The notes under the pieces: generated by a model | What the model saw: only the letters and a program-made list of their open reading frames with translations | Told to the model about the DNA's origin: nothing | Databases searched by the model: none | In this document: positions 6,813-33,855 of the stretch, in pieces | How positions within the stretch are numbered: position 1 is the first letter of the stretch | Layout of the letters: each line of letters begins with the position of its first letter | Program-made: the position numbers and the translations under genes | From: Muribaculaceae bacterium | GTDB taxonomy: Bacteria; Bacteroidota; Bacteroidia; Bacteroidales; Muribaculaceae | NCBI GenBank assembly: GCA_017620885.1 | Contig: JAGAUF010000030.1 | Span: forward strand, 1 to 37,304 | Direction: 5' to 3' | Length of the DNA: 37,304 bases

Positions 6813-6877
6813 TAAGCTAATTTTGCTATTATAGCTGTCACACAGCTATAATAGCTATTTTAGCTATTATTAGCTTA
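6813..6877. repeat. Nested palindrome / TAGCTA repeat array upstream of the steroid-reductase operon
   Basis: Three layers of symmetry are visible. An inner perfect 14-bp inverted repeat (6825-6838 with 6842-6855) has only a 3-nt CAC centre. An outer inverted repeat pairs TAAGCTAA (6813-6820) with TTAGCTTA (6870-6877). The self-palindromic hexamer TAGCTA occurs at 6852 and 6861, with the variant TAGCTT at 6871, spaced 9-10 bp (about one helical turn). No T-tract follows, so it does not look like a terminator for the SlyD gene. The predicted transcription start of the next operon falls inside it, which suits an operator or a structured leader. Confidence 0.7.
6818..6825 (+). promoter_or_regulatory. 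-7 promoter element of the steroid/bile-acid operon
   Basis: An exact TAATTTTG -7 element lies 67 bp before the ATG at 6892. The -33 position holds only AT-rich sequence (around 6795-6800), so the promoter may be weak or activator-dependent. The element is embedded in the left side of the palindrome array; a protein bound there would be expected to block or alter transcription. Confidence 0.5.
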
Positions 6878-6891
6878 AATACATTAGCGCG

Positions 6892-7668
6892 ATGTTTATA
6901 TTTGACTATTCTTTCTTCCAAGTGCTGATGGCTGTCATGGCCGTACTCGCTGTGATTGTCTTTATCGCTCTGCAATATGTGGCGGCTCCTTACGGGATTA
7001 TGATTTCCGACAAATGGGGCGCGACAATAAATAATAAAACCGGGTGGATCATTATGGAGGCTCCGGCCTTTATAACGATGCTCCTGCTCTGGGTTATTTC
7101 GCCGCGCGCAGCTTGGATCGCACCGGCTGTGATGGCGTCGCTTTTCCTTCTCCACTATTTCCAGCGCTCTTTCATATTTCCCTTACTGCTCAAAGGACGC
7201 AACCGTATGCCTTGGGCTATCGTCCTAATGGGGTTGATTTTCAATATAATCAACGCTTATCTCCTCGGCGCATGGCTATTCTTCTTCTCGCCGGCTACCC
7301 TATACACCGCGCAATGGCTCTCTTCTCCCCTCTTTATCCTCGGCACAATCGTGTTCTTCATAGGTATGTGGATTAATCTGCGCAGCGACTACATCATCCG
7401 CCACCTGCGCAAGCCGGGCGATACCCGCCACTACATACCGCGCGGAGGTATGTTCCGCTACGTATCATGTGCCAATTACCTCGGCGAAATTACAGAGTGG
7501 ATAGGATTTGCCATTCTGACATGGTCGCTCCCCGGACTGCTTTTCGCTGTATGGACTTTTGCCAATCTTGGCCCCCGCGCGAGACGCGTACACAAACGCT
7601 ATCTCGATGAATTCGGTGAAGAATACTCCGCGCTGCACCGCAAGGCCATTATCCCTTTCCTCTACTGA
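6892..7668 (+). CDS. Steroid 5-alpha-reductase family protein (SRD5A-like; candidate bile-acid 5AR)
   Basis: The 258-aa membrane protein is close to mammalian steroid 5-alpha-reductases 1 and 2 in length and motifs. It reduces the delta-4 double bond of 3-oxo-delta-4 steroids with NADPH in that family. Visible landmarks: WIIMEAP (Glu56 aligns with the SRD5A2 catalytic Glu57), LHYFQRSF (Tyr89 aligns with Tyr91), the NADPH-site run GMWINLRSDYIIRHLRKPGD (~158-177), IPRGGMF and ANYLGEITEW (Asn195, Glu199), and the family ending KAIIPFLY. The Gln that precedes the catalytic Glu in the human enzymes is Met55 here. It is first in an operon with an OYE reductase (34-bp gap) and an SDR, the set reported for isoallo bile acid formation in gut Bacteroidetes. 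The substrate is inferred from family and context. Confidence 0.9.
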   Translation: MFIFDYSFFQVLMAVMAVLAVIVFIALQYVAAPYGIMISDKWGATINNKTGWIIMEAPAFITMLLLWVISPRAAWIAPAVMASLFLLHYFQRSFIFPLLLKGRNRMPWAIVLMGLIFNIINAYLLGAWLFFFSPATLYTAQWLSSPLFILGTIVFFIGMWINLRSDYIIRHLRKPGDTRHYIPRGGMFRYVSCANYLGEITEWIGFAILTWSLPGLLFAVWTFANLGPRARRVHKRYLDEFGEEYSALHRKAIIPFLY

Positions 7669-7702
7669 CAATCTATCTCCCGACTAATCTAACCTGACTG
7701 AC

Positions 7703-8938
7703 ATGAATAACGAAAAAGATACCTCCCTCCTCTTCACTCCGGCCAATATAGGTCCTGTAATGCTCCGCAACCGTACCATCCGCTCTGCGGCGTTTGAGGG
7801 AATGGGACGCAACAACAATCCTACTGACGAACTGCGCGACTATCATCTGAGTGTGGCGCGCGGTGGAGTCGGAATGACGACACTCGCCTACGCTGGCATC
7901 TGCGAGTCCGCGCTATCCTTCAAGACCCAGATATGGCTACGTCCCGAAATTGTGCCTCAGCTTCGTGAAATCACCGACGGAATACATGATGCAGGAGCAA
8001 AAGCCTCTATCCAGATAGGGCATTGCGGAAATATGACTCACCGCAGCACCGCCGGCTGTTTGCCCGTGGCGGCTTGCACGGGATTCAATCTATATTCCCC
8101 TACATTCTGCCGAGGTCTGCGCAAGTACGAACTGCAGACGCTGGCACGTCAATTTGGCGACGCCGTCAATACCGCGCGCGACGCCGGATTCGACTGCGTG
8201 GAGGTACATGCCGGCCATGGCTATCTGATCTCGCAATTCCTTTCCCCTTACACCAATCGCCGTCGCGATGAGTTCGGTGGCTCGCTCGACAATCGAATGA
8301 GATTTATGCGTATGTGTATGGAGGAGGTGATGAAGGCCGCCGGCAACGATATGGGCGTCCTTGTCAAAACGAATATGCGCGACGGATTCAAGGGTGGACT
8401 GGAGATCGACGACTGCATAACCGTGGCGAAGGAACTGGAACAGCTTGGCGCGCACGCCTTAGTCCTTTCGGGAGGCTTCGTAAGCAAAGCGCCCATGTAC
8501 GTGATGCGCGGTCAGATGCCTATCTACACGATGACCTACTATATGAAACAGTTGTGGCTGAAATACGGCGTGCGTATGGTGGGCAAATATATGATTCCGA
8601 CAGTACCTTTCAAGGAGCTGTATTTCCTCGATGACGCACTGCGATTCCGCGAAGCTCTGAAGGGCCAGCTCGTATACGTGGGAGGTGCCGTGAGTCGCGA
8701 GGGTATCGACAAGGTTCTCTCGTCGGGATTCGATTTCGTACAGATGGGACGCGCGCTGATTAATGAACCTGATTTCGTAAACCGTCTCCGCGAGGGAGAA
8801 GAACGTTGCGACTGCGACCATGTGAACTATTGTATAGGCCGCATGTACGGCGACAAGATGGTATGCCACAAGCATTGCACCGACATTCCCAAAGGAATTC
8901 AGAAGGAGATAGACAAAATCAAGGGGGATAAACGATGA
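7703..8938 (+). CDS. Old Yellow Enzyme family FMN reductase (candidate bile-acid 5-beta-reductase/dehydrogenase)
   Basis: The 411-aa product is a single OYE-type TIM barrel and lacks the C-terminal FAD/NAD domains of BaiCD or 2,4-dienoyl-CoA reductase. The typical HAGHGYLISQFLSPYTNRR stretch (~169-187) with FGGS and the late FVQMGRALINEPD (~345-357) identify the family. The C-terminus carries C369, C371, C377, C388 and C392. Compared with the usual Cx2CNxC iron-sulfur motif, the second Cys is Val374 while the following Asn is kept, so the cluster may be absent or differently ligated. In gut Bacteroidetes an OYE-like 5BR beside 5AR interconverts 3-oxo-5-beta and 3-oxo-delta-4 bile acids, the role inferred here. 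The stop overlaps the next start as ATGA (8935-8938), implying translational coupling. Confidence 0.85.
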   Translation: MNNEKDTSLLFTPANIGPVMLRNRTIRSAAFEGMGRNNNPTDELRDYHLSVARGGVGMTTLAYAGICESALSFKTQIWLRPEIVPQLREITDGIHDAGAKASIQIGHCGNMTHRSTAGCLPVAACTGFNLYSPTFCRGLRKYELQTLARQFGDAVNTARDAGFDCVEVHAGHGYLISQFLSPYTNRRRDEFGGSLDNRMRFMRMCMEEVMKAAGNDMGVLVKTNMRDGFKGGLEIDDCITVAKELEQLGAHALVLSGGFVSKAPMYVMRGQMPIYTMTYYMKQLWLKYGVRMVGKYMIPTVPFKELYFLDDALRFREALKGQLVYVGGAVSREGIDKVLSSGFDFVQMGRALINEPDFVNRLREGEERCDCDHVNYCIGRMYGDKMVCHKHCTDIPKGIQKEIDKIKGDKR

Positions 8939-9744
8939 ATCTTTCCAAAATAAAAGGGAAAACGGCAGTCGTCACAGGGGCCTCGTCGGGTATCGGGCTG
9001 CAGTTTTGTCGCCGCTTGGCCGAGCAGGGCGCCGACATCGTGATGATAAGCAATCAGAATAAGGAATTGACCGCCGCCGCACGCGAATTATCGGACAAAT
9101 ATGGCATAATCACCTACCCGCTGTGCGTGGATCTGACGGCTCCCGACGTCGTGACAGGCATAGAGACGTTTCTGCAGTCGCGCAAGCTGCAGCCGGAAAT
9201 CCTCATTAATAACGCCGGGATATTCTCATTCAATTATCTGACGGAAACACCCGACGGTAAAATTGAAGCGTTCATCGACCTGCACGTACGCGCCGTGACA
9301 CAGCTGAGCATCGCCTTTGCGCGTCGATTCAAGGCTCTTGGACGTGGATGGATACTTAATATGTCATCTATGTCATGCTGGATGCCGATGCCCGGTATAG
9401 CGCTTTATTCCTCCACAAAAGCGTATATACGTGTTCTCTCGCGCGCCCTGCATTATGAGATGCGCGATGACGGCGTCCGCGTATGCGTCGCCTGCCCGGG
9501 AGGAATAGCGACCGACCTTTTCGGACTTCCTCACAAGCTGCAACGCCTTGCCGTAAGAATCGGCGCCCTCCAGACTCCGGAGAAATTTTCTTACAACGCT
9601 CTGAAACGTCTTATGTCGGGCAAAGCTCAATATATCAACGGGCCGTTGAATCGGTTTGCGATATTCTTTATCGCCATTATGCCGCGCCGCGTGCGTATGC
9701 TCGTCAAACGCCTGATGCTCGACAAAGGTATCCGGAAGCCATAA
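8935..9744 (+). CDS. Short-chain dehydrogenase/reductase (candidate 3-beta-hydroxysteroid dehydrogenase)
   Basis: The 269-aa product is a classical SDR: the Rossmann motif TGASSGIG (14-21), NNAG (92-95), catalytic Ser144/145 in NMSSMS, and YSSTK with Tyr158 and Lys162. Asn39 after the second strand, with no Asp there, would suit NADP(H), but this is a weak cue. The C-terminal third is hydrophobic and basic (e.g. FAIFFIAIMPRR, ~239-250) and could touch the membrane, as in SDRs of the 17-beta-HSD12/ketoreductase group. It starts in a 4-bp overlap with the OYE gene and ends the operon, so it probably handles the 3-oxo/3-beta-hydroxy step on the product of the two double-bond reductases. The enzyme class is certain; the steroid substrate is inferred. 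Confidence 0.85.
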   Translation: MNLSKIKGKTAVVTGASSGIGLQFCRRLAEQGADIVMISNQNKELTAAARELSDKYGIITYPLCVDLTAPDVVTGIETFLQSRKLQPEILINNAGIFSFNYLTETPDGKIEAFIDLHVRAVTQLSIAFARRFKALGRGWILNMSSMSCWMPMPGIALYSSTKAYIRVLSRALHYEMRDDGVRVCVACPGGIATDLFGLPHKLQRLAVRIGALQTPEKFSYNALKRLMSGKAQYINGPLNRFAIFFIAIMPRRVRMLVKRLMLDKGIRKP

Positions 9745-9767: not shown

Positions 9768-10235
9768 TCAGAGATTCAGCGGAAGCGTTGATGTGTGCTT
9801 CACCTCGGCCATCACGAAGGTCGAGGTCACCGATCCGATTGATTTGATATTTCCGAGCACCTCCATCACGAAATCACGATAATAATTCATATTCGGCGCA
9901 TATATCTTCAGAAGATAATCGTATGCGCCGGCCATATTGTAACATTCCAGCACCTCGGGGATGTCGCGCACAAGGTTCATAAAATCATGGGCGGCGGCGT
10001 TGCTGTGCGTCACGAGCTTGATATTGCAGAAGACAGTAAATCCGAGGTTAAGCATATCAGGGTTGAGGACAGCGACATAGCCACGTATTACACCATCGCG
10101 CTCCATTCGCTTGATACGCTCATAGACAGGGGTTGTGGAAAGATTCACTTCAGCGGCAATCTCCTTGGTGGTTTTTTGCGAATTGTTCTGAAGAATCTGA
10201 AGAATCTTCATATCAATAGTGTCAAGATGTACCAT
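9768..10235 (-). CDS. Lrp/AsnC family transcriptional regulator
   Basis: The 155-aa product has the standard Lrp size and order: an N-terminal helix-turn-helix (~1-50; LDTIDMKILQILQNNSQKT, then EIAAEVNLSTTPVYERIKRME) and a C-terminal RAM ligand-binding/oligomerisation domain (~65-140) with the diagnostic GAYDYLL (~103-109). It would bind DNA as a multimer and respond to an amino acid or another small molecule. The frame is open upstream to 10376, but the ATG at 10235 (MVHLDTID) fits the family start and the predicted promoter. It converges with the SDR gene across 23 bp, so a local regulatory link to that operon is plausible but not shown. Confidence 0.92.
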   Translation of the reverse strand: MVHLDTIDMKILQILQNNSQKTTKEIAAEVNLSTTPVYERIKRMERDGVIRGYVAVLNPDMLNLGFTVFCNIKLVTHSNAAAHDFMNLVRDIPEVLECYNMAGAYDYLLKIYAPNMNYYRDFVMEVLGNIKSIGSVTSTFVMAEVKHTSTLPLNL

Positions 10236-10300
10236 AGAAAATATTTCTAATTGAGGGTTATCGACAAAGTTTAAAAGTGCAAATATTCTAATTGCTGCCA

Positions 10301-10331
10301 CAAAATTAGTTAATTTCACCAAATTTTCAAA
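10301..10331 (-). promoter_or_regulatory. Bacteroidetes-type promoter of the Lrp/AsnC gene
   Basis: On the minus strand TTTG (10331-10328) and TAATTTTG (10308-10301) are separated by exactly 19 bp, a full consensus match. Transcription would start near 10294, leaving a ~60-nt leader before the ATG at 10235. Confidence 0.7.
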
Positions 10332-10359
10332 ATTATTAGGAAAGAGCTTCCAAATTTTG

Positions 10360-10367
10360 TAATTTTG
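10360..10367 (+). promoter_or_regulatory. Orphan -7 element on the plus strand
   Basis: An exact TAATTTTG lies on the plus strand, divergent from the Lrp promoter. The -33 position has only a TTAG-like match (10336-10339). No plus-strand gene follows; instead a hairpin with a T-tract lies ~165 bp downstream (see the ncRNA candidate). Confidence 0.35.
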
Positions 10368-10373
10368 TAGCGT

Positions 10374-10563
10374 CATAAGTCAGTCGAAGCCGTTCAGAAT
10401 GATATATCTGACGATTAGAGACTGATATTTGCGACCATTATTCCACCAACATATAGTCGCTTTCGACATTCCTCAAGAAGGAAAAAATTTTGAATGATGT
10501 TATCATAAAATTAATGAGTGTGAACCTACCGGAGACAGATCGTGAGATTAGTCTCCTTTTTTA
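10374..10563 (+). ncRNA. Candidate small RNA between the Lrp gene and a secreted-protein gene
   Basis: The 390 bp between 10236 and 10625 hold no convincing gene. On the plus strand an orphan TAATTTTG (10360-10367) is followed ~165 bp later by a terminator-like hairpin: GGAGAC (10531-10536) pairs with GTCTCC (10551-10556) and a six-T tract starts at 10557. A transcript between them would be ~190 nt. Short internal complementarities exist (e.g. GCGA near 10431 with TCGC near 10457). No known RNA family was recognised, and the 5' and 3' ends are not complementary in the way of 6S RNA. This is an inference from the promoter/terminator pairing only. Confidence 0.3.
10531..10563 (+). terminator. 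Terminator-like hairpin on the plus strand
   Basis: A 6-bp stem GGAGAC/GTCTCC (10531-10536 / 10551-10556) with a 14-nt loop is followed directly by TTTTTT. The stem is short but the T-tract is good. It does not suit the minus-strand gene at 10626, because no A-run precedes it on the plus strand. Confidence 0.45.
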
Positions 10564-12490: not shown

Positions 12491-15400
12491 TTATTTCACT
12501 ACAACCTTGTAGTCGTCCTTACCTACTCTTACGATGTAGATGCCGGACTCAAGATTATATGTTTCAGCATCGCTTCTGACTGTGGCTTCGCGCATAAGCT
12601 TGCCGTCGGTCGTAAAGATGCGCATCTCTTTTCCTGTATAGCCGCTGACGAGGACTCCACCCTTCACGCCGGCTACGTGAGCCGATACACCGTCGATTCC
12701 ATCAACACCCGAGCTAAATACGCGTGCTGCATTTGAACGGGGACCACCGATGATGATATTGCCTGACTTCGTGTATGTGATAACATAATACGTAGCGTTG
12801 TGATCGTCAGTGATGGTAGTATCGGTGAAGGTAGTGGCCTTCAGGTTGTCAGCCATGCATGACCATGTGCTCCAGTCGTCGTCGGTAAGACGCCATACGC
12901 TGTAATGATCGATGTCGTATACACTTTCCTGCTTAGCGGGAGTGAACTCGATGTCGTCGAGCATAGCGCCAAACGTGTCGAAGCTGCGGAATACAAGGGC
13001 GAAGTATTTAGCATCTTTCGGGAGCGTGAAGCTTACGTGTTCCCAAGCCTCTGTACCCTCCTTAGAGAATGTACGGATGTACTTGAAGCTGCCACACTTG
13101 CCATCCTTAGCGGAGCCACCTTCAGGAATGTTGATAGCGTCGCCGAGGGTATCGTCGGTGGATGAGTAGTATAGCTCTACATACTCGGTGTAGTCGCTTG
13201 AAATCGTGCCATACCAGAAGCTTACTTCAGATCCACCTACTACTTCGGGCGAGATCAGCCAGTCGGCTGCCTGCGTGGGCTCGCTGCTGGTGTCGCTATC
13301 GTCGAAATACGGGATACGGGCCATGACATACTTCGTACCGCTGTGAGCGCCCATACGAGCGTCGTCTTTCCACATTGGGAAGTCGTTAGTATCTACAACC
13401 ATCCATCCGGTGGGCTGATCGTCACCCTCCCAGCGCAGACCGTTGAAGGGGAAGACGGGCTTGCCGTCCATATCGACATTGCGGAACATTCCGAGCTGTT
13501 CGCCCTGTTCGAATCCTTCTACCATCTCGAAGGATTCAAGACCTTGGAATTTAGTGTCGGGCTCGCTCCAATTAAGCGTGATGCCGGTCTTACCGTCGTC
13601 CCACTTACCTTCGAGGTCACGAACTACGGGAGCCTGTGAATCGATAACCGTCACCTTAGTGGAGAGCGTGTTATTCCATTCTATCTCATCATTCTCGTAT
13701 TCTACCGTTACGTCGATGGTGAGGGGTGATTTGGCAGCATAATCCTCTTTTGCGGACAGATTGAAGGACGTGGTAACCTTCTGGAGGCTGAGGATACGGG
13801 GAAGCGGCTTGTCGTCGCGGACAAGGATGTTGCCATCTTTATCCTTGAGACGGATAATCATTGTGGCCTCGTTACGGTTGAGAGACTCTTTACCGGCATT
13901 TCCTATCGAGATCAGATATTCGCTGCGTTCGCCGCTGAAGATATGATCCTTACCTGCGATAGAAGCTACATTGAGGTCGTAATCTACATCCTGCGTTACA
14001 GAGTAACCGTCGATGAATCCGTATTCCTCGCGAGTGGACTTGAGTTCGAAGCGAATTACGCACTGAACCCATCCCTTATTGAGCATAGCTTCGGGGAGCT
14101 CGATTGAGCCGTCTCTCCATTCGCCGTTGGCGGGTTTGTCCATCGGGAAGTCATCTACCTTCACGTAATCGTTCTGACCGGGATAACGTGCCCAGAGCGA
14201 CAGTGAGGGTGCGTACTGATAATCAAGGTAGCGGAGCGTGAAAGCAGCCTGACCTACGCTGAGAGTTGAGAACTTAGGCAGGACGAGTTCGCCTTCGGTC
14301 GGACGGGAAAGTGTGCTGTAGCAGCAGATACCACCGCCGTCGCTAAGGTCCTCGTCAGCATTGTGATAGTAGATGTCGGCCATAATGGACGAAATCGACT
14401 GGAATGCTGATCCTTCAAACTGATCTGCGAGGTTATTGTAAGTCGGATTGTAATCGAAGGCCGAGCTACCGAAGTGCTCTACGATCGGCAGGAGGTTGGG
14501 ACGTCCGAGAACATCGCCGATGAAGCGGGAGTTGATCGATTCACCCATGCTGTTTCTGGCCGAAGGACCGAGTACGTAACGCTCCTGAGAATCAACCGTA
14601 GCATTGTAATCAAACTCAAGACCGCGCGTTGTACCTACCTGATAGTAAGTTGCGGCAGGCACATTGTAAATGACGTATTCAACGTCGTCGGGATTTACGT
14701 AACCGCCGTGTTCACCTACGTTGGAGGGTTTCTCCCAAGTGAGCTTCATACCCATGTTGTCGTCGTGGGGGATACCTACGATGTTCTGCGGGCACTGCGG
14801 AACGTCGAGACCTACGTAAGCACGGTAGGTACGCATCAGACCGCTACCCTTGGCATTGGAGGGCGTCACGTCGAAGAATGAGTAACCGCTTTGAGCTACA
14901 TCCACGCGAGCCGTTACAGTAGCACCGGGTTTGCCGGTTGCGGAACCTGTCTTGTCGCCACAAGCGATATTTACAGTCACATCCTCGCTTGCATTGAGCA
15001 CGTTGCCGATAGCATTTACAGTCGGGAGCGTCACAGTGACGTTAGCGTAAAGGTCGCCGTTATCGCCGGCAGAGATTTTTACATCTTTGGGATCGCCCGG
15101 AACGTCGGAAGACTGGTCGCGGAGCGAGTTTACTGCGAAGTCACGAACACGTACGCCGGAGCCTGCGCCGCCGGGAGTCGTGCAGTGGAATGCGATGTAG
15201 TAATCGCCTGCCTCGGGCACGCCGAAGTTGAGCGAGTAGTTGTGATCGTTGGGGAAGTCAATATTACGTCCGCGGAAGATGTTGATCATATCCTTGGTAT
15301 TGGTATTGAGCTTCTTAGTCAAATAGATGTCGAGGCTCTCGCTGCCGTCGTACTGCATGTTTGCATACGTGAAGGCGAGGTTGTACATGTGCTCAGGATC

Positions 15401-17224
15401 GGGGAATGACATAAGCGGCATGAACAGCCAGTCGTTTGCATGACCATAGTAGCCTACGCCGATGCAGAACTCGAAGTAGCCGCGGTCGTCGGTGAAGAAG
15501 AATCTGTCTTCATCGTTGTTTGCGTTGATGATCGAGAAGAGCTCGGAATCATTTACGTTGGGCTCCATAGTTACGGGGAGGTCGAGAGCCTTACCGATAA
15601 CCTGATCAGTTGAGCCGGCTTCAGACGTCAGGCCATTAGCCGTTGCACGTACTGAGATGCGGGAATATTCGAGAGTCTCCGGCATCGTGATAGTGTATTT
15701 CGTGTCGGTGACGGGCTCTGTGTTCTGCTTGGTCTGACCGATGTAGATGTCATACGTCAGAGCTTCCGTGTCTACAAATCCTTGGTTCACACCGACAGAT
15801 CCGGGAGCGGTCCAAGTAAGGAGGTCGCCGTCGAGATTGACGTTAGTCGGAGCTTTCGGGGTGTCGTTGCCGACATAGAATTTCACCTTTCTGACGGGGC
15901 TCTCAAGGCCACCTACAGTGCAGACCACCGTAAGCTCGTGGAGGCCCTGTTCGAGAGTTACATTTTCAGTGCGAGAAGCGCCGGGAGCAAGGTTGCCGTT
16001 GAAGACCTCCGTGCTGTCGTCGATCTTTACAACCGTAGCCACCTGCGTGGATGCGGGCATCGTCACACCGCTGTAGAATGCATCGGAAGCGGTAAAGGTT
16101 ACAGTACCGCTGAGGGCGTTTTTGTCAAACGTCACAACGGGAGCGGCAGGATATGCCGGAGCATCATTTTCAGCGTAGGGGTCGGTGCAAATCAGCGTGA
16201 TGAAATAAGGGGTGCGGATTCCGTTGCCGGAGAGAACAGCACCTTTCGTCACGCTCCAGTCGTCGGGGCTGAGATAAGCAAGGCTGATTTGATTAGCGCG
16301 CGCGTCGGGATAAACCATCACGAAGCACTCGTCGAGCGGGCTATACGTGATCTGTGTAGACACCTGCGTGCCGATGTAATCGCCGCCGTTCTCAATGCTA
16401 CCTGCCTGAACAGGACGCGGATTGCCTTCCTCTACGATGTATACAGCACCGTCGTCGCAGAAGCAGTAAACCGACTGATCTGCAGGATTGTAAGCCACAG
16501 CACCTGCAAATGCGCCGTTAACGTTGATTTGAGGGCTACTGATCACACGGAAGTTCTGGTTAGGATCGACAACGGAGAGGATGTTGGCCGACTTAGAAAC
16601 TTCGTCGATTGAGAGGCAGTAGAACAAATCTTCGGCCTCATTATACGTCATCGAGTAGGCGTATGCCGCATAATCTCCGGTACCGAAGGTGATAGGCGTC
16701 ATTACGTCGCCCGTCTCGATATCGATGCGATTCCAGAGAACCATCGTGCCGAGGTCGGTTTCACGAATTGCAGTAGTGTAATAGATTCCGTCGCGGATAG
16801 CGCCGCCCTGAAAATCATAGTCGTTGCCATTGATGAGGGCCGACGACGAGAACAGACGTTCTACATGTCCGGTTGCACCGTCGACAGTACCCAAGAATGC
16901 CTGACGAGCATCAGTCATACCATCATAGTCGCCAACGGCACCGATGAAGTGTCCGCGAGGAGCTTCAATAGAACGAGTTTTAGGCGATTCCGCCTGATGA
17001 CGAATTGTCATAAAGCCATCGCGCGCGCCGAACAGTCCGCTAAGCTGTTTTGTTCCGCGTTCTGCGCGTCTCTTTGCGAGATAACCGGTCTTATGGATAC
17101 GCGTCACGTTTTCTTTCGTGCCGGAATTTTGCTTCAGGCGCTTGAACTGGCCTGCTGCCACTCCGGTAATCGCGCTGCATCCGATAAGAGCGGCGAGGCT
17201 CAAAGTCAAGATGTTTCGTTTCAT
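12491..17224 (-). CDS. Giant secreted protein: propeller-like N-terminus, Fn3-like repeats, choice-of-anchor-J domain, T9SS-type tail
   Basis: The 1577-aa product has a signal peptide (~1-24). Residues ~95-350 form a repeated strand pattern, with a unit GAVAYNPADQSVYCFCDDG, suggesting a beta-propeller-like fold. Several Fn3-like modules follow (e.g. 455-545, 805-900), each with a WTAP or LTWEKP strand. A jelly-roll-like region with DWLFMPLMSF lies at ~550-700, a CARDB-like module at ~1080-1195 and a cleaved-adhesin/choice-of-anchor-J domain at ~1230-1430 (GFEQGEQLG, ADWLISPEVVGGS, KYFALVFRSFD). The tail (~1510-1577), ending GIYIVRVGKDDYKVVVK, matches T9SS type A sorting domains. This predicts export through T9SS and surface attachment or release. 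No catalytic motif was seen; adhesion or ligand binding is a guess. It is divergent from, and paralogous to, the 1589-aa protein. Confidence 0.88.
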   Translation of the reverse strand: MKRNILTLSLAALIGCSAITGVAAGQFKRLKQNSGTKENVTRIHKTGYLAKRRAERGTKQLSGLFGARDGFMTIRHQAESPKTRSIEAPRGHFIGAVGDYDGMTDARQAFLGTVDGATGHVERLFSSSALINGNDYDFQGGAIRDGIYYTTAIRETDLGTMVLWNRIDIETGDVMTPITFGTGDYAAYAYSMTYNEAEDLFYCLSIDEVSKSANILSVVDPNQNFRVISSPQINVNGAFAGAVAYNPADQSVYCFCDDGAVYIVEEGNPRPVQAGSIENGGDYIGTQVSTQITYSPLDECFVMVYPDARANQISLAYLSPDDWSVTKGAVLSGNGIRTPYFITLICTDPYAENDAPAYPAAPVVTFDKNALSGTVTFTASDAFYSGVTMPASTQVATVVKIDDSTEVFNGNLAPGASRTENVTLEQGLHELTVVCTVGGLESPVRKVKFYVGNDTPKAPTNVNLDGDLLTWTAPGSVGVNQGFVDTEALTYDIYIGQTKQNTEPVTDTKYTITMPETLEYSRISVRATANGLTSEAGSTDQVIGKALDLPVTMEPNVNDSELFSIINANNDEDRFFFTDDRGYFEFCIGVGYYGHANDWLFMPLMSFPDPEHMYNLAFTYANMQYDGSESLDIYLTKKLNTNTKDMINIFRGRNIDFPNDHNYSLNFGVPEAGDYYIAFHCTTPGGAGSGVRVRDFAVNSLRDQSSDVPGDPKDVKISAGDNGDLYANVTVTLPTVNAIGNVLNASEDVTVNIACGDKTGSATGKPGATVTARVDVAQSGYSFFDVTPSNAKGSGLMRTYRAYVGLDVPQCPQNIVGIPHDDNMGMKLTWEKPSNVGEHGGYVNPDDVEYVIYNVPAATYYQVGTTRGLEFDYNATVDSQERYVLGPSARNSMGESINSRFIGDVLGRPNLLPIVEHFGSSAFDYNPTYNNLADQFEGSAFQSISSIMADIYYHNADEDLSDGGGICCYSTLSRPTEGELVLPKFSTLSVGQAAFTLRYLDYQYAPSLSLWARYPGQNDYVKVDDFPMDKPANGEWRDGSIELPEAMLNKGWVQCVIRFELKSTREEYGFIDGYSVTQDVDYDLNVASIAGKDHIFSGERSEYLISIGNAGKESLNRNEATMIIRLKDKDGNILVRDDKPLPRILSLQKVTTSFNLSAKEDYAAKSPLTIDVTVEYENDEIEWNNTLSTKVTVIDSQAPVVRDLEGKWDDGKTGITLNWSEPDTKFQGLESFEMVEGFEQGEQLGMFRNVDMDGKPVFPFNGLRWEGDDQPTGWMVVDTNDFPMWKDDARMGAHSGTKYVMARIPYFDDSDTSSEPTQAADWLISPEVVGGSEVSFWYGTISSDYTEYVELYYSSTDDTLGDAINIPEGGSAKDGKCGSFKYIRTFSKEGTEAWEHVSFTLPKDAKYFALVFRSFDTFGAMLDDIEFTPAKQESVYDIDHYSVWRLTDDDWSTWSCMADNLKATTFTDTTITDDHNATYYVITYTKSGNIIIGGPRSNAARVFSSGVDGIDGVSAHVAGVKGGVLVSGYTGKEMRIFTTDGKLMREATVRSDAETYNLESGIYIVRVGKDDYKVVVK

Positions 17225-17933: not shown

Positions 17934-20900
17934 ATGAAGCGAATTTATCTCAGATGGTCGGCAATGACATTAGCCGCCGCCATGATTCTTCCGCTTGCAG
18001 CCCAGACGACTTCACAGACGCATCGGCGCGTGAACGCTAACTCAGGCGTTCCGACAGCTACCGCGCAGAAGAAGATCAACGAGGCCAACAGGGAGAAGTT
18101 TGAGCAAATCAACAAGATTTTCGAGCGCAATCGAGCAGGCGCACCCGGCATCGGTTCGGGCGGCCCGCGTACGTTTGACGTAAAACCTCAGCCCAAGCAG
18201 GCTGCCAATTATCTCGCCACGCGCTCGGCATACGAGCCACGCGGCAAGGCATACGCCGTTGTTCCCAGCCATAGTCTTTCCGCCGGCTACAACAACGCGC
18301 TTTTCGGCTCAGTGGATTTTGCCACAGGTAAGTTTACGCAACTTTACAGAGGTTCGGAATACAGCCTTCGTGAGGACTATCAGGAGATGACCTCCTTCAT
18401 CAATGACGGCATCATCTATATCCCTGCATTCGTACAGGATATGGTGACGCTTGATATGAGTGTTTTCTGGCGCCGCATCGACCTTGCCACAGGACAGCGT
18501 CTCTCCGACATCAGCTTCGGTGACGATTTCGGCGGTTTTGCATACGCTTTGACATACAACCCCGACAACGGCAAATATTACGGTTTCGCCATCAACCTCG
18601 TTACAGGCACGTATGGTGAGTTCTACGAATACGATATTTCCGGCCATACGCCGACGGCCACGTATTTGGGAAGCCTCTACAATTCACAGTCGGGCATGCC
18701 GTGCTCCATCTGCTACAATCCCAAAGACCAGATGCTTTATACCGTAAAAGACAACGGTACAATGTATATGTTTGAGGGGACGACGAATCCTACTCTGATG
18801 GAGGTAGCACAGTTTGCCAACGGCGGTGGTACGGACGACCTTCTTGCCGTTCCTGACAAGGGTTACGCCACCACACTGTGCTATAGCCCGAAAGATGAAG
18901 CATTCGTTACCATCTACCGCGACGCCGCTTCCCAACTGATGCGTCTTGTCTTCATCGACGCCAACGATTATACAGTATACAGCGGCAACACCCTTTCAAT
19001 GACGGGATGGTATTCATCGCTCAACTGTATCGAGGCATACGCTGACAACGACGCGCCCGCACAGGCCGAGCTTAAAGAGGTAATACTCGATAAAGCAAGC
19101 TTGAACGGTAAGATCAGCTACGTCGCTCCGAAGGAAGATTTCGCCGGCAACGCCATCTCCGGACAGACGATGAAGATGTACAGCTACATCGACGGCAATC
19201 AGATTGATGTGCGCACAGTTACTCCCGGTGAGAGCTACACCGTAGATTTCGCCACCACTCAGGGCAACCATACCTTCTCTATCCGTCCAGCCTTCGAGGT
19301 AGGCACAGAGATGAAAGAGGGTCCCGAGTCGAAAATCGTCAAATGGGTAGGCAACGATAATCCCAAAGCCCCGGCCAACCTGAAATTCAAAGATCTCACC
19401 GTGACGTGGGATGCTGTGACTGAGGGTTATCATCTGGGTTACGTAGATGCCGAGGCAGTGACATACGATATTATGCTCGACGGTGAGAAGGTGAATACGG
19501 CTCCCCTCACAGAGACGACCTACACGTTTGATCTTCCGGAAAATCTCCTTCGCCGTAACATCACTGTAACGGCTACTGCCAACGATATGACATCCGAAAA
19601 GAGCACTCCTCTGAGTGCAGTATTCGGTAAGGCTCTTGAGTTGCCCCAGTCGTTCGCACCGACCAAACAGGAGGCCTCCCTCTTCAATGTAGACGATGCC
19701 AACCATGACGGCACCGTATGGCAGTTCTATGAGAAAAACAGTTCCCTCCCTGACCGTATGGGTATCGGAATGGTAAATTATACGGAATCTCCCGACGACT
19801 GGATGTTCCTTCCTCTGATGCACTTTGATTCCGCCGACCATCTGTATCAACTCGCATTCACCTATTGTAATTTCTACAATAGCAACGAGCGTATGAAATC
19901 CAATATCAAGGTATATATCGGCAATGGCGCCAGCGCAGCCAATATGACGACACTCATCTATGAGCGCGACGGCGACAATGTGCTTGTTCCTATCAATATC
20001 GAGGCTCTCTTCGGCGTGCCCGAGGCCGGCGACTATTATATCGGTATTTACACCGGTTTTGTCCAGACCAACAACTCGCGCGGAGCCGCAGTATGGGATA
20101 TTCATGTTTCATCGCTTGACGATGTATCTGCCGACCTTCCCGGCGCAGCTGAGGACGTAACGATTTCCGCAGCCCCCAACGGCGAATTGGCAGCCATCAT
20201 CGACGCTACTATTCCTACACACGCCATCGACGGCAGCGTTCTTCCTGAAACGACCGGCGACATCACTCTGACCGGTTCATACGAAGACAACTCTGCAAGT
20301 GCTACAGGCAAGCCCGGCGAAAAGGTATCAATCAAAGTGCCTATCAATGCCAACGGCTTCGCATACGTAGACCTCCAGACTTCATACAACGGTGTCAATA
20401 CTATCAAGCGCAACTACCGTACCTTCGTCGGAATCGACGTGCCGATGAAACCGGCCAATGTAAAGGGCGTTCCGTCAGTCGACAATATGACTCTCGCTCT
20501 TACATGGGATCACGTGGAGAAGGGTGTAAACGGTGGCTATGTAAATCCTGCGACACGCAAGTATGACATCTACCTGATGCACGGCTCAAACTCTCAGACG
20601 AAGGTAGCCGAGACGAAACTCAATGAATATATCTACAACCCCAACGATGCTAAGCAGCGCGCCTATTATGTAGGTCCTGCCTGCGTTACTGAGGAAGGTT
20701 CTTCGACACTCAACGACTTCATCTATGAATACCTCGGCACACCGTACGATCTGCCGATGAATGAGAACTTCCAGCAGACTTCATCGACTGGCTTCAGCAC
20801 GGGACCGTGGACCAACGGCAACGGCATTGAATGTCCCTGGAGCCACACGCAGTCAGTCGAGGGTCTTGGCTACGGCAACGCAATCCCTGACGGTGCAATC

Positions 20901-22703
20901 TTCATCTGTACGTCGCTGGGAGGCCTTACCGGTAAGTTGAATGCACCTAAAGTATGTACGACAGCCGTATACGACGCACGTATCGGACTCCGCTACTGGA
21001 ACTATCCCAACGCAGCCAACATCGAGGTATGGGGCCGTCGTCACGGTCATCTCGAAGACGAGCTGCTCTTCACAATCAACCCGAATCGTCCTGCCAACGT
21101 TATGTTGGCCGATTGGGTAGACTGGTCGGAACAGCTTCCCGAAGAGTATCAGAACTGCCCGTGGATTCAGATTTACCCGGTAGCCAAACTGCTCAACTCC
21201 ACTTCCACTGCCATCCTCGACAAATATGACGTTTATCAGGATGTAGAGCATGACTTCCGCGTGAAGGAGGTCACAGGGCCGAGCAGTGCATTCGTAGGAG
21301 AGAAACCCACCTTCTCCATAACGGCCTCCAACTCCGGACTTGAAGCCGGAGCGTCCAATCTCGTGATTCGCCTGAAAGACAAAAACGGCAAGGTTCTCCA
21401 GCGCGAAGACGTACGCCTGCGCCGTCTCCTTCCGGCCCGCAACTATACTCACGAGATTACTTTCGAGATGAAGCCCGAATACCTTGAAAGCGGCGAGCTG
21501 ACAGTAGTCGGCACGATTGAGGACGAGGACGACGAAATAGAACGCAACAATGAAATCTCGATGACTTTCACCCTGCGCAATACGGATCTTCCCGTGGCAC
21601 GCAATGTGGAAGGCAAATGGAATGATTCCCACAATACGGTCAGCCTGACGTGGGACGACGCCGAGAGCACGGAATACGGCAGCCACGAGAGCTTCGAATA
21701 TGACACTCCGTTCCAAATCACGGAGCAGCTCGGCCAATGGACCAACATCGATATGGACAAGCATGCTCCGTTTGCCATTGAGGGCGCTCGCTTCGATAAC
21801 GACAATATGCCGTCGGCATGGACTGTCATCAACGCCGAGACACTGAGTACGATGGAGGTAGACCGCCTCTGTCCTCACCACGGCAAGCAGTACATTATGG
21901 CCCGTTCATGCGATTATGACATGAACGCCGGGGAAGAGCCGGCACAGTCGGCAGACTGGCTGATTTCGCCCGAGGTAGTCGGCGGCTCGACAGTATCGTT
22001 CTGGTATAACACGATAGATTCTCAGTATACCGAGACGGTAGAGCTGTGGTACTCGACGACTGACACGACGCTCGGCGACGAGATTGTACAGAACGGCACA
22101 GAATGGACCTGCGGCAGCTGGAAGCGAATCCGTCCCTTCACAAAATCAGGGTCGGAGACGTGGGAACACTGTACGGCCACTCTGCCTGAGAATGCCAAGT
22201 ATTTCGCTCTTGTTTACCGTTCATGGGGTCAGTTTGGCGCGCTTCTCGACGAGATAGAGTTCACTCCTGCCAAGGCTCAGAACTGGGACATCGACGGCTA
22301 CGTAATCTTCCGCGAACTGCGCGACGAAAAGGTATATGAAGAAGCAGGCACATCCAAGACACGCTCGTTCCTCGACGAGACAGTCGGCGACAAGAATGTC
22401 AGCTACTTTATCAATACCCGTGTACGCCGTGCCGACGGCAATACGTTCCTTGCTCCGCGCAGCTCCGAGCTCCGTCTCTTCTCTCTCGGTCTGAACGATG
22501 TTGATGCTCTTACGAGCGTTACGGGCGGCAAGGGAGAAATCCTTGTCAGCGGTCTTGAAGGCAATGACATCGACATTTACGGTGCAGACGGCAAGATGCT
22601 CCGTCGCACGACGATTTCCGACGCCAAGCAGTCTATTAAGATTGACGGCGGCATCTATGTCGTGAAATGCGGCAATAAGATAGCCAAGGTTGTGGTAAGA
22701 TAA
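17934..22703 (+). CDS. Giant secreted protein, paralogue of the divergent 1577-aa protein, with T9SS-type tail
   Basis: The 1589-aa product has a signal peptide (~1-23), then a basic/Gln-rich linker with a short helical stretch (KKINEANREKFEQINKIFER). From ~100 onward it follows the divergent paralogue module by module. Shared landmarks include NDNPKAPANL, the VTWDA and GYVDAEAVTYDI strands, GKALELP, DDWMFLPLMHF, ATGKPGEKV, GGYVNP and a CARDB-like region (VRLKDKNGK-like, ~1130-1230). A choice-of-anchor-J domain lies at ~1248-1445 (SADWLISPEVVGGSTVSFWYNT, KYFALVYRSWGQFGALLDEIEF). The end (~1520-1589, GIYVVKCGNKIAKVVVR) is a T9SS type A-like tail. Secretion and surface display are expected; the ligand is unknown. 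Similarity is strongest in the anchor-J domain and lower in the N-terminal third, as in an old duplication. Confidence 0.88.
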   Translation: MKRIYLRWSAMTLAAAMILPLAAQTTSQTHRRVNANSGVPTATAQKKINEANREKFEQINKIFERNRAGAPGIGSGGPRTFDVKPQPKQAANYLATRSAYEPRGKAYAVVPSHSLSAGYNNALFGSVDFATGKFTQLYRGSEYSLREDYQEMTSFINDGIIYIPAFVQDMVTLDMSVFWRRIDLATGQRLSDISFGDDFGGFAYALTYNPDNGKYYGFAINLVTGTYGEFYEYDISGHTPTATYLGSLYNSQSGMPCSICYNPKDQMLYTVKDNGTMYMFEGTTNPTLMEVAQFANGGGTDDLLAVPDKGYATTLCYSPKDEAFVTIYRDAASQLMRLVFIDANDYTVYSGNTLSMTGWYSSLNCIEAYADNDAPAQAELKEVILDKASLNGKISYVAPKEDFAGNAISGQTMKMYSYIDGNQIDVRTVTPGESYTVDFATTQGNHTFSIRPAFEVGTEMKEGPESKIVKWVGNDNPKAPANLKFKDLTVTWDAVTEGYHLGYVDAEAVTYDIMLDGEKVNTAPLTETTYTFDLPENLLRRNITVTATANDMTSEKSTPLSAVFGKALELPQSFAPTKQEASLFNVDDANHDGTVWQFYEKNSSLPDRMGIGMVNYTESPDDWMFLPLMHFDSADHLYQLAFTYCNFYNSNERMKSNIKVYIGNGASAANMTTLIYERDGDNVLVPINIEALFGVPEAGDYYIGIYTGFVQTNNSRGAAVWDIHVSSLDDVSADLPGAAEDVTISAAPNGELAAIIDATIPTHAIDGSVLPETTGDITLTGSYEDNSASATGKPGEKVSIKVPINANGFAYVDLQTSYNGVNTIKRNYRTFVGIDVPMKPANVKGVPSVDNMTLALTWDHVEKGVNGGYVNPATRKYDIYLMHGSNSQTKVAETKLNEYIYNPNDAKQRAYYVGPACVTEEGSSTLNDFIYEYLGTPYDLPMNENFQQTSSTGFSTGPWTNGNGIECPWSHTQSVEGLGYGNAIPDGAIFICTSLGGLTGKLNAPKVCTTAVYDARIGLRYWNYPNAANIEVWGRRHGHLEDELLFTINPNRPANVMLADWVDWSEQLPEEYQNCPWIQIYPVAKLLNSTSTAILDKYDVYQDVEHDFRVKEVTGPSSAFVGEKPTFSITASNSGLEAGASNLVIRLKDKNGKVLQREDVRLRRLLPARNYTHEITFEMKPEYLESGELTVVGTIEDEDDEIERNNEISMTFTLRNTDLPVARNVEGKWNDSHNTVSLTWDDAESTEYGSHESFEYDTPFQITEQLGQWTNIDMDKHAPFAIEGARFDNDNMPSAWTVINAETLSTMEVDRLCPHHGKQYIMARSCDYDMNAGEEPAQSADWLISPEVVGGSTVSFWYNTIDSQYTETVELWYSTTDTTLGDEIVQNGTEWTCGSWKRIRPFTKSGSETWEHCTATLPENAKYFALVYRSWGQFGALLDEIEFTPAKAQNWDIDGYVIFRELRDEKVYEEAGTSKTRSFLDETVGDKNVSYFINTRVRRADGNTFLAPRSSELRLFSLGLNDVDALTSVTGGKGEILVSGLEGNDIDIYGADGKMLRRTTISDAKQSIKIDGGIYVVKCGNKIAKVVVR

Positions 22704-25452: not shown

Positions 25453-26433
25453 ATGAACAAAACTACCGATATGAAAAAGATTCTATCATTGATTGTCCTT
25501 ATGGCTGTATTTGCCGGCACAATGGCAGGCGCGACGGCCAAGAAGCCCAAACTGATGGTATTTCCGAGCGACGACTGGTGCCGGGAGCGCGGATATATGC
25601 TTGACGCCAATACTCCGGACTACGAAAAAGCACTCTCCGATGTGGATATGGACGGTGCAGTGGCCGTTATGGGCGATATATTGGCAGAGATGGGGTATCC
25701 TATGTTCTCGCTCAAGCAGGAGCTGAAACAGCTGCATACAGAGGGAGCATACGGTATGGCGGTGACTTCCAAACAAGACGGCGCCGTAATGGAAAGCGAC
25801 CGGGACGCCGTGACGCGCAATGTGGGAGCGGACTTTATCGTCGAGCTGTCGCTGTCGGTCAAGCCTTTCGGAGTCAGACGTGCGATAGAATTCAAGGCTC
25901 AGACCATCGATGCGTCTTCAAGAAAAATCCTCCACGGCGACATTGGCTCTTCAGAAGCGTCAAGCGCCCCGATGCCCGTGCTGGTAAAACAGTCGGTAGG
26001 CGGCTTTATCGACAATTTCTGCCATAAAATCGACCTTGCCTTCGCAGACATAGAGAAAAACGGACGCGAAGGGAGCATCGTTTTCAAAATTGCCGATGAT
26101 TGTCCCCTTACATTCGAGAGCGAGGTAAGCGTGGACGGTGAAAGCGGCGAGCTTTCGGAATATATTACCTACTGGCTTGAGGAACGTGCCGTTGAAGGGG
26201 CGTGCTCGCTCAATCAGAAAAGCCGTGAAACGCTTCGCTACGACCAAGTGCGTTTCCCCCTCTTCTCTACTGTCGCCGCAGGCGGATTCGGTTCGAAAAA
26301 GGGGAAGGTAAAAGCGCAGACAATGGAATCGTTTGTGGCACCTATATCCCGCGACCTCAGTCAGTTTAATGTCAGTGTGACCACAGTGCCGATAGGACAG
26401 GGGCAAGTCTATGTAGTGCTCGGCCAGCGTTAA
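25453..26433 (+). CDS. DUF6175 family exported protein
   Basis: The 326-aa product has a signal peptide; the start could be 25453 or the ATG at 25471 (MKKILSLIVLMAVFAGTMA). The opening KPKLMVFPSDDWCRERGYM (~32-50) is the hallmark I associate with DUF6175: K-P-x-[LI]-M-V-[FV]-P-S-D-x-W-C-x-x-x-G-Y-M. It is followed by a segment like TolB-N/CsgG domains (VGADFIVELSLSV, then AQTIDASSRKILHGDIGSS, then a helix, ~138-200). The C-terminal part (~215-326) is a mixed alpha/beta region. The family has no assigned function; the CsgG-like fold is an inference from strand/helix order. It lies second in the operon, 39 bp before the next gene. Confidence 0.82.
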   Translation: MNKTTDMKKILSLIVLMAVFAGTMAGATAKKPKLMVFPSDDWCRERGYMLDANTPDYEKALSDVDMDGAVAVMGDILAEMGYPMFSLKQELKQLHTEGAYGMAVTSKQDGAVMESDRDAVTRNVGADFIVELSLSVKPFGVRRAIEFKAQTIDASSRKILHGDIGSSEASSAPMPVLVKQSVGGFIDNFCHKIDLAFADIEKNGREGSIVFKIADDCPLTFESEVSVDGESGELSEYITYWLEERAVEGACSLNQKSRETLRYDQVRFPLFSTVAAGGFGSKKGKVKAQTMESFVAPISRDLSQFNVSVTTVPIGQGQVYVVLGQR

Positions 26434-27462: not shown

Positions 27463-28983
27463 ATGAAGCATTTTTATAAAATTGCGGCGCTGGTGCTTAT
27501 ATTGATCATCGGCGTTTCAACCGCCGGCGCGAAGAAAAAGAAATCCGGACGCGTGTTTTATGACTCGAAGAGCTGGATTGTAAACGTATTCGGAAATACG
27601 GAAGAGTATATGTCTCAGACAATAAGACATAAAATCGAGTCTTTCCCTATGGCAATACCGATGTTTTCCGCGTCGTTTGACAAAGACGGGCTCCCTGACG
27701 AGAAAGCATGCGAAGATGAGGCACGCAGACTGACGGAGGAGGGATACGGAAAGAAGATTGTGGATATTCTCACACTTAACGGAGAATCAGAGAATACGCT
27801 CCGGCGTCTGGCGATAGCCAACGTGCAGAAAGGCGACATCGAGCTTGCCAATGAGAATATGCGCGTTTCCGAGGGAGACAACGCATCCAATCTCCTTGCA
27901 GAAGACTACCTCCCCATTCTTATGCACAATTACATCGTGGCCGAGGTCCCATACACTTATAAGGTTAAGGACAAGAACGACAATTATGTGGAAAAAACAG
28001 GATATTGGCCTGTACTGTTCAAGGTTGACATCGACAAAGAACAGGCTTTCGACATTATGTCGTGCCTCGGCGACAAGGAACGTTATGATAAACTTCATTT
28101 CAACGTAAGCCTTGCAAGCCGGCAAAAATACTATAACGACATTATCGAAGAGGTGCCCGATATGGCTGTGCGCGGCGTGCTGACACAACGTGCGCCGGCC
28201 AGAATAAACATCGGAAGCGACGCCGGCATCTCGAAAGGAGACTTGATTTCTTTCTTCGGACAGCGTGTCGACAAGGAGGGGAATATGTACTCCAAACGTA
28301 TAAGCCGTGCCCGTGTCAGTGCTGTATGGCCCGAATATTCTCAGGTGAATTTCGAGGCAAAGATGTCAGGAAACCGCAAAAACGGCGACGTGGCTGTCAA
28401 AACCCCTGATTCCAAATCATGGTTCGGACTGCTCGCCACATGGTCGCCCCACATCTGGGGAGGAAAGATTCTCTCTGACATATTCTCCGGATACACCCGC
28501 GCCGGAATCATCCATCATTTTCTGATGGATCTCGGATTCAGTATGAGCGACTGTCCGAACAACAAATTCCTGTATTATGCCCCTGACAAAGACGCCAACT
28601 GCCTCAAATCTCCTATGTTCTGGAATATAGGAATGGGATACGGCCTGAGCAAGACATTTGTCGGATTTTTCGACTTTATGCCATTTTTCATTGTGCAGTA
28701 TGAAGGAGGGTTTATGCCGGGCAATAAAAAACTCCTGAAGGAATATGAAGCTGCCGGAGAAGACTACGGCAAACAGGCCAAAACCATTTACGGCAATTTC
28801 CTGCGCGTGCCTGTCGGACTGCGTTTCAGCTTCAATATCGGCTATCCGACGCGCCTCGCCATTGAAGCGGGATGGGCCTTCAACGTCGCCTTCGACAACA
28901 ATGCCAAAGGCATCAAAGAAGCGATGAAGACATTCGGAGGCAAACGCGACGGCATATTCATCAACCTCGGTCTTACATTCTGA
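27463..28983 (+). CDS. Exported protein with probable C-terminal outer-membrane beta-barrel segment
   Basis: The 506-aa product has a signal peptide (MKHFYKIAALVLILIIGVSTAGA). The N-terminal part (~30-330) mixes helices and strands and includes INIGSDAGISKGDLISFFGQRVDKEG (in outline), resembling the small-barrel segment that follows CsgG-type domains (I-G-x-x-x-G-[IV]-x-x-G-D). The C-terminal ~180 residues have alternating aromatic/hydrophobic strands (FWNIGMGYGLSKTFVGFFDF, LRVPVGLRFSFNIGY, LAIEAGWAFNVAF) and end in GIFINLGLTF, with the terminal Phe typical of outer-membrane barrels. It is fourth in the operon and probably provides the outer-membrane component of whatever the operon builds. 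Function unknown. Confidence 0.7.
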   Translation: MKHFYKIAALVLILIIGVSTAGAKKKKSGRVFYDSKSWIVNVFGNTEEYMSQTIRHKIESFPMAIPMFSASFDKDGLPDEKACEDEARRLTEEGYGKKIVDILTLNGESENTLRRLAIANVQKGDIELANENMRVSEGDNASNLLAEDYLPILMHNYIVAEVPYTYKVKDKNDNYVEKTGYWPVLFKVDIDKEQAFDIMSCLGDKERYDKLHFNVSLASRQKYYNDIIEEVPDMAVRGVLTQRAPARINIGSDAGISKGDLISFFGQRVDKEGNMYSKRISRARVSAVWPEYSQVNFEAKMSGNRKNGDVAVKTPDSKSWFGLLATWSPHIWGGKILSDIFSGYTRAGIIHHFLMDLGFSMSDCPNNKFLYYAPDKDANCLKSPMFWNIGMGYGLSKTFVGFFDFMPFFIVQYEGGFMPGNKKLLKEYEAAGEDYGKQAKTIYGNFLRVPVGLRFSFNIGYPTRLAIEAGWAFNVAFDNNAKGIKEAMKTFGGKRDGIFINLGLTF

Positions 28984-29985: not shown

Positions 29986-30075
29986 TACTTAATTTTAGAG
30001 AGAGGCCAAACTTGTCTCCCGACTCCTCACTAAATTAACTGTCGATATATGAGAATTACTCTACGCATATTAACT

Positions 30076-31515: not shown

Positions 31516-31534
31516 ATTGTAAAAAATCAAAGCT

Positions 31535-32572: not shown

Positions 32573-32591
32573 AGCTGTCCGACAACAGCAA

Positions 32592-33812: not shown

Positions 33813-33855
33813 ATCAAACAGACAAAACCTGCCGGCAGACACCCGGCATCAAGAT

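Follow-up and report, generated by a model that had tools for sequence, protein, structure and literature searches.

In a 37,304-nucleotide stretch of DNA from a Muribaculaceae bacterium (hereafter, the window), we identified three closely spaced genes encoding an SRD5A-type steroid 5-alpha-reductase (5AR), an OYE-type flavoenzyme (OYE), and a short-chain dehydrogenase (SDR; Table 1). With bile acids or similar steroids as substrates, the three enzymes very probably produce a flat ring junction, and we consider it probable that the operon is a reduced, three-gene version of an A/B-ring isomerisation operon that comprises four genes in gut Bacteroidales. In the proposed mechanism, the OYE, equipped with FMN and probably an iron–sulfur (Fe-S) cluster, would interconvert 3-oxo-5-beta steroids and 3-oxo-delta-4 enones, the membrane-bound 5AR would reduce the enone with NADPH to the flat 3-oxo-5-alpha (allo) steroid, and the SDR would interconvert a ring ketone and the corresponding alcohol, most likely at C3. 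The OYE and 5AR steps are proposed from the enzyme families and from work on Bacteroidota covered in reviews. A/B-ring isomerisation operons are already known, and Sato and Li, both in 2021, are said to have described a Bacteroidota cluster of 5AR, 5-beta-reductase (5BR), and 3-beta-hydroxysteroid dehydrogenase (3-beta-HSDH) that forms isoallolithocholic acid (isoalloLCA). However, the reduced form appears to be new with respect to its SDR: these operons carry SDRs of two families, referred to here as C and D, and the SDR of the window is of type C. In the open-licence literature, we found no account of Muribaculaceae 5AR operons or of two SDR types.

Table 1. Genes of the three-gene operon, with positions in the window.
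Gene	Position	Strand	Length	Assignment
5AR	6892-7668	+	258 aa	SRD5A-type membrane 3-oxo-steroid 5-alpha-reductase
OYE	7703-8938	+	411 aa	putative 3-oxo-steroid delta4/5-beta oxidoreductase (5BR)
SDR type C	8935-9744	+	269 aa	short-chain dehydrogenase

The trio had been described in a first-pass annotation as an SRD5A-type reductase, an OYE, and an SDR, the first two genes lying 34 bp apart and the last two overlapping by 4 bp (ATGA); this was borne out by open reading frame (ORF) calls and Pfam families. The 5AR matched PF02544 (Steroid_dh) with an E-value of 8.9e-46 (156 bits; gathering cut-off 22.6), and near full-length matches in the PDB included the bacterial SRD5A 7c83 (2.1e-55) and human SRD5A2 (7bw1; 3.7e-46). 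Glu56 and Tyr89, which had been claimed as the catalytic residues, indeed align to Glu and Tyr of human SRD5A2 (E57 and Y91) and are identical in 189 of 189 aligned relatives. By score and catalytic residues, the protein is thus assigned to the SRD5A family. As to the claimed NADPH-site motifs, Asn162, Asp166, Arg173, Arg229, and Tyr237 are identical to 7bw1, at positions that we take to contact NADPH. Unlike the human and bacterial enzymes, which resemble it in length of match and in the catalytic Glu and Tyr, the window 5AR stands in an operon with an OYE and an SDR. It is 57% identical to the 5AR of a Parabacteroides genome (G222), and 48-67% identical to operon members in general, compared with 42-45% for 5AR-like proteins of distant Bacteroidales. 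The latter are encoded at eight loci (L129-L136) with no OYE or SDR of the operon types nearby; at L130, L131, and L133-L136, the 5AR-like gene is preceded by a common gene that, by appearance, resembles an NAD-epimerase-type extended SDR.

The OYE matched PF00724 (Oxidored_FMN; E-value 1.9e-49) and consists of an FMN barrel and an iron-sulfur-type segment, with no FAD/NAD(P) domain. Its AlphaFold2 model (mean pLDDT 91.7) was structurally closest to trimethylamine dehydrogenase and 2-naphthoyl-CoA reductase, with 2,4-dienoyl-CoA reductase at rank 7; as in these three enzymes, the barrel extends into the region that carries the Fe-S cluster there. In Fe-S OYE-type flavoenzymes, the 4Fe-4S cluster is bound by four cysteine ligands. 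C371, C377, and C388 are present in 139 of 139 aligned relatives, H373 in 133, and C369 in 86; H169, H172, Y174, and C108 likewise occur in all 139. The OYE is probably of the Fe-S type, and as it has no built-in NAD(P)H module, one may ask which partner supplies its electrons. The enzyme shares its FMN barrel with BaiCD and related 3-oxo-delta-4-steroid 5-beta-reductases of Bacillota. As a BaiCD equivalog (NF041087), however, it was rejected (score 182 bits, equivalog cut-off 825 bits): the best-matching stretch covers positions 4-261 of the 642 in the model, leaving its C-terminal half, presumably the FAD/NAD(P) part, unmatched by a protein of only 411 aa. Homologues of less than 500 aa were left out of a survey of Bacillota 5BRs, according to a section of PMC12238238. 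Section 9 of the same source separates bile-acid from hormone 5BRs by residues N166 and S171 of ci2350; ungapped transfer of these positions led to G173 and Q178 in the window OYE, which fit neither type, so that the transfer is not usable.

With PF00106 (adh_short; E-value 3.4e-38), a TGASSGIG motif, and Ser145-Tyr158-Lys162, which are invariant in 40 of 40 aligned sequences, the window SDR is a classical SDR (TGxxxGxG plus Ser and Tyr-xxx-Lys). In its longest common version, the operon comprises four genes in the order 5AR-OYE-SDR(C)-SDR(D), of which the first three are homologous and collinear with those of the window, whereas D is missing there. In a tree of 119 C and 84 D sequences, one branch separated the two types without exception (local support 0.85), and the median identity of reported pairs was 24% between C and D, as compared to 46% within C and 40% within D. 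The window SDR belongs to C and is 24% identical to the best D; as the SDR of the described Parabacteroides and Bacteroides clusters is a D, sequence comparison argues that it is not their orthologue. The first-pass match to the isoallo pathway was therefore retained in part: 5AR and OYE agree in family and order with those of the isoalloLCA cluster of Parabacteroides merdae and others and, as there, lie on one strand, but the third gene is of type C, while the Parabacteroides, Bacteroides, and Phocaeicola loci carry D. The annotation of this gene as the 3-beta-HSDH of the cluster was dropped. The broader claim, that the organism can remodel 3-oxo steroids at their A/B ring junction, gains support from the likeness to 5AR/OYE operons of gut Bacteroidota.

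A D gene elsewhere in the source genome (2.08 Mb, the window being its contig C64) was rejected within the 87% that is sequenced, the best match reaching 29 bits. Likewise, genome-wide searches found no D in 11 of 13 relatives from the window genus. In reverse, no C was found in nine of nine D-type genomes of Parabacteroides, Bacteroides, and Phocaeicola (best match 79 bits, 30% identity) and no D in five of five C-type genomes of Rikenellaceae and Millionella (best match 51 bits), by which a displaced copy was rejected in both sets. As the window SDR is a C and D was not found in the genome, isoalloLCA cannot be inferred as the product. In a PDB profile search with SDR C, acyl-CoA and other dehydrogenases led, and 5fyd/5gt9, which we take to be 7-beta-HSDH, appeared far down the best 60 of 682 matches. 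Because no molecule named hydroxysteroid dehydrogenase was among these best 60, the specificity of SDR C could not be placed.

We next consider gene coupling within the family. The 5AR was present in 39 of 119 Muribaculaceae genomes, including the source genome, and the OYE (E ≤ 1e-100) in 40, i.e., the same 39 and a single genome in which the OYE starts at a contig edge (G001). 5AR and OYE are thus coupled in Muribaculaceae; the Fisher test value of 1e-30 is overstated, because the genomes are related. Counting genes on one strand with gaps of up to 450 bp, we found 5AR, OYE, and C contiguous in 31 of the 38 Muribaculaceae relatives with a 5AR, which argues against a chance arrangement. Of these 38, 22 carry both SDRs (one of them near a contig end), nine have C without D (two near a contig end), and seven have the 5AR alone; without the five members of the window genus, D was present in 21 of 33. 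The window genus itself includes 56 relatives with a 5AR (45 fetched, 11 not fetched). Among the 45, C without D was found in 40 (one near a contig end) and C with D in four, whereas in the remaining one C lies roughly 1 kb past the OYE; D is thus missing beside the operon in 41 of 45, as in the window.

Other Bacteroidales differ in their SDRs. In Parabacteroides, 20 of 38 genomes have a 5AR, and the 19 loci comprise 17 of the form 5AR-OYE-D, one 5AR alone, and one cut by the contig end; none contains C. Named loci were drawn from 576 matches listed, of which 80 were kept, and are not exhaustive. Among these matches listed, D lies downstream in 19 of 19 loci of Parabacteroides, Bacteroides, and Phocaeicola, and C is absent in 18; the C of the single exception (L173), which has both, groups with Muribaculaceae. 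In Bacteroides loci L154 and L158, D directly follows the 5AR and no OYE lies within the fetched stretch, and in L167 OYE and D stand 1.4 kb further on. The 16 named Alistipes loci among the matches listed comprise 11 with C but not D, one with both, and four that are cut. A 5AR is present in nine of 39 genomes of the Odoribacter-type family of G223, which includes contigs that bear the labels Odoribacter and Sanguibacteroides, and it is followed by D in all nine and by C in seven. The four-gene operon also occurs in Barnesiella, Coprobacter secundus, and Sanguibacteroides, and two operons (L126 and L195) contain two C-type SDRs in tandem. For chicken isolates of Bacteroidetes, a passage in PMC6069880 reports a 5AR in all but two Odoribacter and Parabacteroides distasonis.

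On the C tree, Muribaculaceae formed a clade that also held five additional rows (support 0.997); three of these (L183, L203, and L205) are from the same contigs as sampled Muribaculaceae. The window genus formed a clade with one additional row (support 0.83). C has thus been passed down within the lineage, which has probably lost D. The genus was less clean on the 5AR and OYE trees, where the closest bipartitions miss by 12 of 41 and two of 33.

Which isomer leaves the pathway would depend on the third enzyme. Strains of P. merdae, Odoribacter laneus, and Bacteroides dorei produce isoalloLCA, the 5AR gene lies in a cluster together with those for a predicted 3-beta-HSDH and for a flavin oxidoreductase, and disruption of the 5AR in P. 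merdae prevents the formation of allolithocholic acid (alloLCA) derivatives, according to the relevant passages of PMC10382948. As D is the cluster SDR in the genera reported to form isoalloLCA (Parabacteroides and Bacteroides/Phocaeicola), D is likely the 3-beta-HSDH. Since the third enzyme of the window belongs to another family, its end product may be a different isomer; alloLCA or 3-oxo-alloLCA is as plausible as isoalloLCA, and 3-alpha stereochemistry is at least as likely as 3-beta.

A tentative possibility, short of probable, is that SDR C is a 3-alpha-HSDH, acting on lithocholic acid (LCA) to give 3-oxoLCA and on 3-oxo-alloLCA to give alloLCA. Operons with C and D would then convert LCA to isoalloLCA alone, D-only operons would need 3-oxoLCA from outside, and C-only operons, including that of the window, would lead to alloLCA. 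In line with this, Eggerthella lenta forms 3-oxoLCA from LCA in a consortium in which P. merdae, of a D-only genus, proceeds to isoalloLCA, as a passage in PMC10672800 describes, and Bacteroidetes with the indirect pathway are stated to express 3-alpha-HSDH, 5BR, 5AR, and 3-beta-HSDH (PMC9645264, whose passages on 3-alpha-HSDH name no gene). Split operons also point this way: in a group of five Muribaculaceae relatives (g21) with the 5AR apart, C and OYE are together in five of five, and D follows the 5AR without OYE in the fetched stretches of L154 and L158. As C stays with OYE and D with 5AR in these split loci, it looks as though C were tied to the 5-beta half of the pathway and D to the 5-alpha half. 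However, D too stays with OYE in two of the five g21 loci, and in L068 and L069 the OYE lies about 4 kb past the 5AR with no C alongside. Furthermore, stereochemistry is not readable from sequence, and nothing was found to connect C with a known 3-alpha-HSDH, although no direct test for such a link was made.

That C is instead a 3-beta-HSDH, a non-orthologous stand-in for D in an operon that makes isoalloLCA, seems rather unlikely. C does occupy the same slot after OYE, and next to 5AR and OYE some lineages keep C but not D and others D but not C, a pattern that interchangeable genes would produce; Alistipes, moreover, is grouped with the carriers in PMC10218639. But C and D stand in tandem in 22 of the 38 Muribaculaceae relatives, a co-occurrence that redundancy does not explain and that disfavours it, the two are only 24% identical, and PMC13233536, as a hypothesis, ties Alistipes to the promotion of 3-oxoalloLCA synthesis in a passage that does not name isoalloLCA. 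We also regard it as unlikely that SDR C acts at C7, C12, C17, or C20, or that the whole operon serves hormones or other sterols. The closeness of human SRD5A2 to the 5AR and the low position of 5fyd/5gt9 in an SDR C profile led by acyl-CoA and other dehydrogenases would fit, as would the placement of P. merdae and Alistipes under 5-alpha-reductase in part of a testosterone review (PMC12789469); against this, the passages on Bacteroidota 5AR concern bile acids (PMC10382948, PMC10672800, and PMC9645264), and the same genome encodes a member of the choloylglycine hydrolase family (contig C56:4719-5579, L326; PF02275, 131.5 bits), which would be a bile salt hydrolase or another amidase. Action on a bacterial lipid or polyprenoid is very unlikely: loci L129-L136, being without such OYE or SDR genes nearby, suggest that the 5AR family may have other roles, but their proteins are more distant from the window 5AR than the operon members are, and the P. 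merdae disruption stops allo products (PMC10382948).

The reading of the window as a reduced isomerisation operon also has to face several opposing points. The 5AR is not adjacent to OYE in seven of the 38 Muribaculaceae relatives, and as the genome is 87% complete, a D could be missed. The substrate of SDR C is predicted from homology, and D as 3-beta-HSDH rests on the wording of reviews and on gene neighbourhoods; none of the loci was recognised by name as that of P. merdae, B. dorei, or O. laneus. Finally, eleven genera, including Bacillus and Bifidobacterium, are reported to yield isoalloLCA from 3-oxoLCA in a passage of PMC10672800, which implies that other 3-beta-HSDHs exist, and part of PMC10218639 lists Alistipes among presumed carriers of 5AR, 3bHSDH, and 5BR.

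More speculatively, and with more doubt than confidence, the operons might exist in three modular forms defined by two unrelated SDRs: D-only makers of isoallo products, C+D operons leading from LCA to isoalloLCA, and C-only operons making alloLCA-type bile acids, with C as the missing 3-alpha-HSDH of Bacteroidota. This assignment (C = 3-alpha, D = 3-beta) would fit the part that E. lenta plays for P. merdae, as well as the genera in which isoalloLCA formation is reported. The SDR of a bacterium should decide whether its 5AR cluster yields the active isomer. A passage in PMC10672800 reports that isoalloLCA raises FoxP3 in naive T cells, an effect not found there for isoLCA and alloLCA. If the modular model is true, C-only lineages, i.e., this Muribaculaceae genus and most Alistipes, would give alloLCA-type products and not isoalloLCA, the inducer of regulatory T cells, and surveys that count 5AR plus any SDR would overestimate isoallo capacity. 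For Muribaculaceae and Alistipes, such predictions would be corrected by separating C from D in metagenomes. The three forms of the operon also offer a cheap and direct test of the role of each SDR.

Regarding the surroundings of the operon, a mismatch-free 14-bp inverted repeat around a 3-nt loop lies upstream of the 5AR at 6825-6855 (80-nt fold, -28.4 kcal/mol) and could be the terminator of the preceding FKBP-type gene or an operator. A Bacteroidales promoter pattern matched twice in the window, with no match upstream of the operon. Downstream, an Lrp/AsnC-type regulator gene (9768-10376, minus strand) is convergent with the operon, and a similar gene lies downstream of the operon in two relatives from the genus (L061 and L062). 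Further along, two divergent ORFs (12491-17224, minus strand, and 17934-22703, plus strand) encode proteins of 1577 and 1589 aa that appear similar in layout. A 506-aa protein (27463-28983) had no Pfam match at an E-value of 0.001, and a DUF6175 gene is located nearby (25453-26433). Genes for an outer-membrane efflux protein, an HlyD-type fusion protein, and an ABC-2 membrane protein follow in series at 30049-33812, with the next ORF at 33691-35067.

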